64,000 bases of DNA, taken from positions 124,001 through 188,000 of the forward strand of contig NZ_QASA01000001.1 in the NCBI RefSeq assembly GCF_003340495.1, written 5' to 3'. Both the position numbers and the translations under genes were made by a program. The notes under the pieces were generated by a model. The model saw nothing but the letters and a program-made list of their open reading frames with translations, was not told where the DNA came from and made no database searches. Of this stretch, positions 3,691 through 6,284 are shown piece after piece. The stretch's first letter is position 1. Each line of letters begins with the position of its first letter. Origin of the DNA: Adhaeribacter pallidiroseus. GTDB taxonomy: Bacteria; Bacteroidota; Bacteroidia; Cytophagales; Hymenobacteraceae.

Positions 3691-4199
3691 TTATTGTTTA
3701 CTTAACTCGTCGAGTAACTGATCTGTTTTTTCCGGGTCGAGGTTCTCGTAGTACTTTTCCCGAATCTGCAGCATCGGACCAAAGCCACAAGCCGCCAAGC
3801 ATTCTACTGTTTTCAACGTAAATAGGCCATCCGCACTATTTTCGCCCACGCGGCAACCTAAGCGATTCTCCAGATGCTCAATTAATTGGTCGGCGCCCCG
3901 TAACATGCAAGGTCCGGTACGGCACACTTCCAGAACGTGCTTACCAACCGGTTTTAAATTAAACATGGTATAAAAAGTGGCTACTTCGTACACCTCAATT
4001 GGCTGAATGTCTAAAATTTCGGCCACTTTATCTTGAACCGCGGGGCTTACCCAACCACCAAACTCCGCTTGCGCAATGTGCAGTATGGGAAGAATAGCTG
4101 ATTTTTTCCGATCCGGGGGTAGTGTGAAATATATCTTCTGATTTCGGCCATTGCCTCCTCAGAAAATTGTACTCTGTTTTGAGTTGTTGTTGATTCCAT
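3691..4199 (-). CDS. nuoE: NADH-quinone oxidoreductase subunit E (2Fe-2S), apparent frameshift
   Basis: 24-kDa-type subunit of complex I carrying the N1a 2Fe-2S cluster next to NuoF. The thioredoxin-like C-terminal part reads in frame from 4026, with cluster ligands CRTGPC and CLAACG and the family motif YEVATFYTMFN. The expected N-terminus (MESTTTQNRVQFSEEA, then IRRYISHYP) starts at an ATG at 4197-4199 but is in another frame. The frames meet at a run of five G (4115-4119). One more G there would join ISHY to PPDRKKSAILP and give a 169-residue protein of normal family length. The plain open frame has only a GTG start at 4026. I interpret one gene with a single-base deletion, most likely a homopolymer consensus error. 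Confidence 0.85.
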
Positions 4200-4302: not shown

Positions 4303-4667
4303 TTAAAATTGTTGACTTGCTGCTTCCAAATCTTTTAAAGCTTGTACTATTATTGGTTTTGAGTCTGGTAAATTATCATGTATAAGTTTCCAAACTACCG
4401 CTTTGTTGACTTTAAAATATTCATGCACTATTATATTTCTAAATCCTTTTATCCCTAACCAATCAACCGTATTATATTTATCTTTAATATCGGCTGATAT
4501 ATGATTTGTGGCTTCACCAATAATCATCAGGTTTCTTACACAGGCTTCTGCATCATCCGGTTTGATTCAAAATCTGAAAAAGGAATTCCTTCTACAAAAT
4601 CATCCAGTTCAGCAATTGCATCTAATATATGGTGCAACCTGTGTCGATCACCAATTTTATCGCGCAT
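4303..4667 (-). pseudogene. hepT: HepT-like toxin (HEPN/DUF86 RNase), frameshifted
   Basis: HepT proteins are HEPN-fold RNases paired with MntA nucleotidyltransferase antitoxins. The N-terminal half begins at the ATG at 4665-4667 (MRDKIGDRHRLHHILDAIAE) and stops about 43 residues later. The C-terminal half is open in the next frame from about 4550 and contains IIGEATNHIS and the catalytic RNIIVHEY, which fits the RX4HXY motif. Adding one base near 4545-4550 joins SNRMMQ to EACVRNL and restores the whole family profile (about 121 residues). The start codon overlaps the mntA stop by 11 nt. The break could be genuine toxin inactivation or the same kind of consensus error seen in nuoE. The shift is not in a long homopolymer. 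Confidence 0.8.
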
Positions 4668-4950
4668 ATATTAGCTTTTTGTCTTTTTCGATATACGGTC
4701 GGATATTATCATAAACATCATATGATGGAATTACGTCTACTTTTCGATGTAATATTTCTTCTAATTCCAGGTGCATGCCAAAAAAACGCCAACCAATATT
4801 TTGCGAATAATCTAAGTCAACCAGTAAATCAATATCGCTCTCGGCATCTGCTTCCCCGCGGGCAAATGAACCGAACAAGTAAGCTTTTAACACGGGCTGA
4901 TCTTTAAAATATTCCCGGATTAATTGTATTTCCTGTTCTGTTAGGTTCAT
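4657..4950 (-). CDS. mntA: MntA-like nucleotidyltransferase antitoxin
   Basis: Small 97-residue nucleotidyltransferase of the MNT/DNA polymerase beta superfamily. The motif GSFARGEADAESDIDLLVDL (residues about 27-46) supplies the GSx(10)DxD catalytic signature. In the studied Shewanella pair MntA transfers AMP to the HepT toxin, near the RX4HXY motif, to silence it. It overlaps hepT by 11 nt, the usual tight coupling of this toxin-antitoxin family. The pair sits between nuoD and nuoE on the same strand, where no gene is normally found, so it appears to be an insertion into the complex I operon. Confidence 0.88.
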   Translation of the reverse strand: MNLTEQEIQLIREYFKDQPVLKAYLFGSFARGEADAESDIDLLVDLDYSQNIGWRFFGMHLELEEILHRKVDVIPSYDVYDNIRPYIEKDKKLIYAR

Positions 4951-4958
4951 TGTTTGGC

Positions 4959-4995
4959 CACTCCCTAAATCCCTACCCGGTGGAGAGGGACTTTT
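4959..4995. repeat. CTCCCTAAATCCC-type dispersed repeat fragment
   Basis: The segment reads CACTCCCTAAATCCCTACC followed by CGGTGGAGAGGGACTTTT, so TCCCT and AGGGA form an imperfect inverted repeat. Similar CCCTAAATCCC/GGGACTT words recur between genes in many Bacteroidota from my memory. Only one copy was noticed here, between nuoD and the toxin-antitoxin pair, so it may mark one side of the insertion. Confidence 0.45.
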
Positions 4996-5027: not shown

Positions 5028-6284
5028 TTAAGCGTCTAATTCTCCCGCAATTACGTTCATGCTACTCAAAATTAAAATAGCATCGGATAACTGGGTGCCC
5101 ACCACCATTTCGGGATAGGCTTGGTAATAAATAAAACAAGGGCGCCGGAAATGTAAGCGGTAAGGCGTACGGCCCCCATCACTGATTAAATAAAAACCTA
5201 ACTCGCCGTTACCACCTTCTACGGAGTGGTATACTTCGCCTACCGGAGCTTCAATTTCACCCATAATAATTTTGAAGTGATAAATTAAAGCTTCCATGTT
5301 CTTATAAACGGCTTGCTTCGGCGGCAAAAAGTACTCCGGAGCATCGGCGTGATATGGGCCTTCGGGTAAGTTTTCCAAGGCTTGCTGCACAATCCGGAAG
5401 CTTTGCCAGATTTCTTCGTTCCGAACCATAAACCGGTCGTAAGTATCACCCGTGGTGCCTACCGGAATTTCAAAATCAAAGTCTTCATAAGACGAGTAAG
5501 GATTCATTACTCGCACATCATAATCTACACCAGCCGCCCGAAGGTTAGGTCCAGTAAAACCATAATTTAAAGCTTTTTCAGCAGTAATGGGGCCAACATC
5601 TTTAATTCGGTCTACGAAAATCCGGTTACGGGTAAACAAAGCTTCGAATTCCTTCATTACTTTCGGGAACCCGGCAATCCATTCGCGCAGTTTATGAATA
5701 GCAACCGGCGATAAATCGCGTTCCATACCGCCAATGCGACCCATGTTGGTAGTTAAACGGGCACCGCTCAATTCTTCGTAAATCTCGTAAATTTTCTCCC
5801 GCTCCTGGAACACGTACAAGAAACCGGTAAAAGCGCCGGAGTCAACCCCCAAGATACTGTTACAAATCAGGTGATCGGCAATCCGGGCCAGTTCCATTAC
5901 AATTACCCGGATATAATCGGCCCGTTTTGGGGTTTTAACACCTAAAAGCTTTTCTACCGTCATCCACCAGCCCATATTATTAATAGGGGAGGAGCAGTAG
6001 TTCATCCGGTCAGTAAGCGGGGTTATTTGATAGAACGGGCGGCGTTCGGCAATTTTCTCGAATGCCCGATGAATGTAGCCAATGGTCGGAACACCCGACA
6101 CAATCCGCTCCCCATCCATTTGCAAAATATTCTGGAAAATACCGTGCGTAGCCGGGTGCGTTGGGCCCAGATTCAGCGTGGTAAGTTCGCGTTCGTGTTC
6201 GTTATATTGAGCAGGCAATGAATCCGGAATTTTTTCAATTCCCACATTCGTGTTTACCTTGTCTTCTATTATAATATCTGCCAT
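5028..6284 (-). CDS. nuoD: NADH-quinone oxidoreductase subunit D (49-kDa)
   Basis: Quinone-site subunit of the complex I connecting module, related to the large subunit of NiFe hydrogenases but without the metal ligands. Family signatures are LNLGPTHPATHGIFQNIL (residues about 38-55), EKIAERRPFYQ, and the C-terminal VEGGNGELGFYLISDGG with RLHFRRPCFIYYQ. At 418 residues it is full length, encoded separately from nuoC and not fused. The start ATG is followed upstream by a heptad array and a 164-nt gap to nuoC. Confidence 0.97.
   Translation of the reverse strand: MADIIIEDKVNTNVGIEKIPDSLPAQYNEHERELTTLNLGPTHPATHGIFQNILQMDGERIVSGVPTIGYIHRAFEKIAERRPFYQITPLTDRMNYCSSPINNMGWWMTVEKLLGVKTPKRADYIRVIVMELARIADHLICNSILGVDSGAFTGFLYVFQEREKIYEIYEELSGARLTTNMGRIGGMERDLSPVAIHKLREWIAGFPKVMKEFEALFTRNRIFVDRIKDVGPITAEKALNYGFTGPNLRAAGVDYDVRVMNPYSSYEDFDFEIPVGTTGDTYDRFMVRNEEIWQSFRIVQQALENLPEGPYHADAPEYFLPPKQAVYKNMEALIYHFKIIMGEIEAPVGEVYHSVEGGNGELGFYLISDGGRTPYRLHFRRPCFIYYQAYPEMVVGTQLSDAILILSSMNVIAGELDA

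Follow-up and report, generated by a model that had tools for sequence, protein, structure and literature searches.

We interpret the two genes between nuoD and nuoE of Adhaeribacter pallidiroseus as a class I HEPN/MNT module that is likely a passenger of the complex I (nuo) operon, carried on the nuo transcript at a place which such modules have colonised repeatedly and where they have been exchanged in situ. The window, meaning the whole stretch of DNA that was analysed, comprises 64,000 nucleotides, and its relevant features are collected in Table 1.

Table 1. Features in and around the nuoD-nuoE junction (positions in the window).
Feature	Position	Strand	Evidence or remark
nuoE, downstream neighbour of the pair, one-base frameshift at about 4115-4119	3691..4199	-	reading frames, Pfam, comparison with relatives
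hepT, HEPN toxin gene, one-base frameshift at about 4543-4566	4303..4667	-	Pfam and RX4HXY
mntA, minimal nucleotidyltransferase antitoxin, 97 aa, uninterrupted	4657..4950	-	Pfam PF01909 and motif
mntA codons 1-46	4813..4950	-	segment that tracks nuoD history and is retained through exchange in Hymenobacter relatives
dispersed intergenic repeat, 34 nt	4961..4994		single flank of the module only
nuoD, 418 aa, upstream neighbour of the pair	5028..6284	-	Pfam Complex1_49kDa, 5.6e-111

The product of mntA matches the NTP_transf_2 family (Pfam: PF01909) with an E-value of 1.2e-14 (54.8 bits, cut-off 21) and contains the motif GSFARGEADAESDID, a GSX10DXD signature (G27, S28, D39 and D41) with a third aspartate within KVDV. 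The hepT gene matches HepT-like (Pfam: PF01934) with 1.2e-16 (61 bits, cut-off 23.5), and its 3' part (4303-4527) looks whole and bears RNIIVHEY, which fits RX4HXY. The catalytic residues of MntA are unchanged across 14 nuo-located sequences, as are the R, H and Y of RX4HXY in 13 HEPN sequences. Pfam and motifs thus agree with the preliminary description, which had named the pair a nucleotidyltransferase with a HEPN toxin, and the coordinates likewise confirm the overlap of 11 nt (4657-4667, antitoxin gene first), the nuo strand and the position between two genes that are adjacent in relatives without the pair. Three marks of class I HEPN/MNT are present, namely GSX10DXD, RX4HXY and adjoining PF01909 and PF01934 genes; the fourth, that both genes are open, is absent in the window, where hepT is frameshifted. 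The relatives fit class I, and the window copy is a broken or misread member of it. With the NCBIfam models NF047752 and NF047751 the two proteins fall below the equivalog cut-off of 60, MntA scoring 50.2 bits (MntA_antitoxin) and HepT 36.6. A search of the PDB with MntA gave 1wot, a putative minimal nucleotidyltransferase, as the sole match and the same search with HepT gave no match, while the best PADLOC match of MntA is the candidate defence family PDC-S09. The pair is AT-rich (33-37% GC, versus 42-48% in the nuo genes), and its flanking gaps of 77 and 103-105 nt exceed those of most relatives. Two further MNT/HEPN pairs lie outside nuo in the same genome (G000:C1:3549050-3549645 and 4156159-4156744; loci L002 and L003), with MntA proteins of 39% and 32% identity to the nuo-located one.

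The type VII HepT/MntA system of Shewanella oneidensis (SO_3166/SO_3165; PMC7641770) shares the PF01934/PF01909 combination, RX4HXY, GSX10DXD and the adjacency of antitoxin and toxin genes with the window pair, which differs in scoring below the NCBI equivalog cut-offs, in lying inside nuo and in having a broken toxin frame. By its description, the HEPN-MNT system of Legionella pneumophila is also a two-gene module with an antitoxin that transfers AMP, and its abstract does not describe the setting as nuo (PMC11586414).

Transcription of the pair together with nuo, which the preliminary description had raised as a condition, is probable. No terminator-like site was found on the nuo strand between the pair and its nuo neighbours, and a promoter scan of the region gave no more sites than shuffled sequence. 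The mntA start lies at most about 16 nt past the nuoD stop in most filled relatives. In Hymenobacter, the end of hepT overlaps or adjoins the nuoE start codon, so there is no space for a terminator between the two. These compact junctions suggest that the pair is probably cotranscribed with nuo.

Exactly at the nuoD-nuoE junction, MNT/HEPN genes were found in 14 of 204 Hymenobacteraceae genomes from four genera (the window genome, three of Rufibacter type, nine of Hymenobacter type and one of a fourth genus, with genera as inferred from matched contig coordinates and organisms), and 190 had no detectable pair there. All seven other Adhaeribacter genomes lack the pair and have a nuoD-nuoE spacing of 64-159 nt. 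Within the genus, only the window genome carries the pair; across the family, occupancy of the junction is neither private to this genome nor universal. A one-off event is not borne out, since the junction is filled in four genera and other nuo junctions are filled in other Bacteroidota. Both gene positions were listed for 108 genomes, of which 97 have a short spacing, and all 11 with a long one (>800 nt) contain mntA; nothing other than MNT/HEPN was found in the enlarged nuoD-nuoE gaps of these genomes. Fifteen of the family's 99 HepT-like genes sit at this junction, where four are broken and about 11 look unbroken. As a control, the listed rplB positions of 150 family genomes were matched by hand to HepT positions, and no HepT-like gene lay less than 15 kb from rplB; the control is limited in that insertions may be tolerated less well in a ribosomal operon than in nuo. 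The suggestion that selection for intact nuo would maintain the pair is doubtful in view of the 190 genomes without it and the four broken toxin genes; because presence is patchy, retention of the pair by nuo appears weak. In one draft genome (G150; L055:1501-2900), nuoD and nuoE are separated by two tandem MNT/HEPN pairs that differ from each other; both mntA and hepT of the second pair contain stops.

Beyond the family, 13 of the best 80 GTDB loci for the window MntA lie within nuo operons, at the junctions C/D, D/E, after E, before G, G/H, H/I and L/M, and seven of these 13 hold more than one MNT in one operon. No recurring non-nuo context was seen by eye among these best 80 loci when pairs of close relatives (Hymenobacter L096/L099; L070/L072; L091/L092) were set aside. 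Because this list had been seeded with nuo-located sequences, we also drew 120 nuo operons evenly from the class Bacteroidia. Six of them contain MNT or MNT/HEPN genes, at F/G, K/L and L/M. Five HEPN genes were observed inside the sampled operons against about 0.4 expected (from 147 HepT-like genes summed, a mean scanned nuo span of 10.2 kb and genomes estimated at ~3.7 Mb), which is about 12 times the genome-average density, a rough ratio given that a Pfam model was used for the genomes and our own model for the operons. In a quick tree built from 118 MNT proteins, which are short and give modest support, nuo residence switches at least eight times. On the same tree, MNT lineages tend toward one junction, forming an H/I group, a G/H group, an F/G plus K/L group and D/E groups.

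L096 and L099, from two Hymenobacter genomes, each have an MNT/HEPN pair that belongs to another subtype and runs into a dihydroorotate dehydrogenase-like (pyrD) gene, which is a second recurrent housekeeping site for MNT/HEPN. In one sampled nuo operon (G491), nuoD and nuoE are separated by an insert of 5.6 kb (L224:3082-8658 in nuo-strand coordinates) with a secreted-looking protein of 1574 aa; the same operon has small genes at C/D and E/F and an MNT/HEPN pair at L/M.

Within the family, the module itself appears to have changed in place. Two HEPN types are found between nuoD and nuoE, RNxxxHxYF and RHxxVHxYD. Between the Hymenobacter genomes G079 (type A) and G169 (type B), identity is about 90% in nuoD and over the initial 100 nt of mntA, drops to about 50% (47%) for the remainder of mntA and for hepT, and in nuoE is mostly above 90% once more. 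Their dS is 0.32 both for nuoD and for mntA codons 1-46, and it is saturated for codons 47-95. Noisier pairs give 0.27 for nuoD versus 0.49 for codons 1-46 (G079/G028) and 0.93 versus 0.96 (G150/G067), and the tandem copies of G150 show the same step, from 90% in codons 1-46 to 46%. Since silent sites diverge equally, the front half of mntA shares the history of nuoD, beyond what active-site constraint would explain. The simplest reading of the few Hymenobacter pairs and of the tandem copy in a single draft genome is that the back half of mntA and hepT were replaced in place as a unit, most likely by homologous recombination through the flanks; codons 1-46 of the window mntA would correspond to the conserved front half. 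In polymorphic toxin systems, too, the 3' part is swapped at one fixed site behind a 5' part that stays constant; the nuo module differs in that its unchanging segment consists of half an antitoxin gene plus a housekeeping gene, and no secretion is involved. The HEPN/MNT family is already known, and our literature search found no description of HEPN/MNT within nuo operons, of residence that keeps to a junction or of in-place exchange.

Both genes of the Rufibacter pairs, mntA and hepT, have dN/dS values of 0.04-0.15, indicating purifying selection. The dS of mntA (0.50-0.78) is like that of nuoD and nuoE (0.36-0.87), with hepT spanning 0.19-1.25. Taken with the low dN/dS, this similarity suggests that the Rufibacter pair was probably inherited along with the nuo operon and maintained.

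The repeat next to mntA had been proposed as a trace of the insertion event. We rejected it as a scar, as it lies on one side only and has two more copies in the genome, each at three mismatches, which marks it as a dispersed intergenic element. The empty relative G007 has a different, hairpin-like element in the same nuoD-nuoE gap.

The window genome has two frameshifts in this region. Residues 1-36 of hepT (MRDKIGDRHRLHHILDAIAELDDFVEGIPFSDFESN) and the remainder (..EACVRNLMIIGEA..) are in two different frames, with one base absent from the gene. The nuoE shift, about 0.45 kb from that in hepT, leaves an open frame only from the GTG at 4026. Both breaks were overlooked in the preliminary description, whose identification of the pair stands. 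If the sequence is correct, the window HepT is probably inactive, and the family's toxic activity cannot apply in this genome unless the hepT frameshift is a sequencing error. Each shift is either a true mutation or such an error, and nuoE may possibly be a recently broken complex I subunit. That both are errors and the pair fully functional in the living strain seems to us an even call: the other nuo genes seen are whole and nuoE alone is broken, it is open in every relative examined, and its shift falls where the nuo strand has five consecutive C. However, errors are not rife, nuoE being the only split gene among about 40 compared with the nearest relative, and broken HepT genes are frequent at this junction. 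A sequencing artefact at a methylation motif was considered, with both shifts beside CCGGAT, and dropped because the alignment with relatives lets the hepT shift sit a few bases off.

A wider question is whether the location matters to the module at all. About 57 junctions are enlarged among the 120 Bacteroidia nuo operons, and they are mostly filled by small genes other than MNT/HEPN: about 16 four-helix-bundle (23S rRNA IVS) proteins, about five GxxExxY proteins, one ParE toxin and, further, DUF2442/DUF4160-like, Uma2-like, ORF6N-like, secreted-looking and other proteins (counts by eye from the sequences, with one to two per kind confirmed by Pfam or NCBIfam). The four-helix-bundle and GxxExxY genes are likewise small and stand-alone, but they belong to other protein families and are not known to form toxin-antitoxin pairs; they share junctions with MNT/HEPN (L140-L259; e.g. 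L178, L188, L215, L193 and L226). Nuo of Bacteroidia thus resembles an all-purpose harbour for small genes rather than a specific respiratory partner. Carried further, this would mean that nuo gaps merely tolerate small genes and that MNT/HEPN pairs drift in and decay there with no benefit from the place. The other occupants and the four broken HepT genes of 15 speak for such neutrality, which we regard as a serious contender falling somewhat short of an even chance, since both genes are under purifying selection in Rufibacter, the family's enlarged nuoD-nuoE gaps held MNT/HEPN only and lineages tend to stay at one junction. At the other extreme, an antitoxin that uses ATP, made from the complex I transcript, could turn HepT into an energy sensor that halts growth. 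Arrival in the complex I operon has been recurrent and independent, and MntA silences HepT using ATP (PMC7641770), both of which favour a coupling to respiration; we nevertheless find it improbable, as the pair is missing from most nuo operons and the toxin is broken in the window genome. Small genes of unrelated kinds occur at these junctions too, which weakens a specific link to respiration.

Under the passenger reading that we prefer, the nuo transcript would carry the pair and MntA would be produced first. MntA transfers AMP to the RX4HXY tyrosine of the HepT RNase, using ATP (PMC7641770), and by analogy with the family the nuo-located MntA would silence its HepT in this way. In the window genome, if its sequence is right, HepT would be truncated and the antitoxin alone left. 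The nuoD-nuoE junction would belong to a set of several nuo junctions that were settled on repeated occasions by MNT/HEPN lineages of Bacteroidota and retained separately thereafter. The specificity half, i.e. the 3' part of mntA with hepT, would be swapped by recombination between arms formed by nuoD with the 5' part of mntA on one side and nuoE on the other. A strong and always needed operon may supply the antitoxin, and careless deletion of the pair may carry a cost through damage to the nuo genes downstream.

Toxin-antitoxin pairs are commonly regarded as genes of mobile elements or islands. More speculatively, and as something we would put forward only tentatively, the complex I operon of Bacteroidota could be a standing docking site for toxin-antitoxin modules, with an anchored catalytic antitoxin front, recombining cassettes of specificity plus toxin and expression tied to respiration. 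Recurrent, junction-specific residence within a core respiratory operon, where the toxin half is exchanged in place, offers a natural series of empty, filled, swapped and decayed sites for testing a long-standing question, the role of chromosomal toxin-antitoxin pairs in their host.
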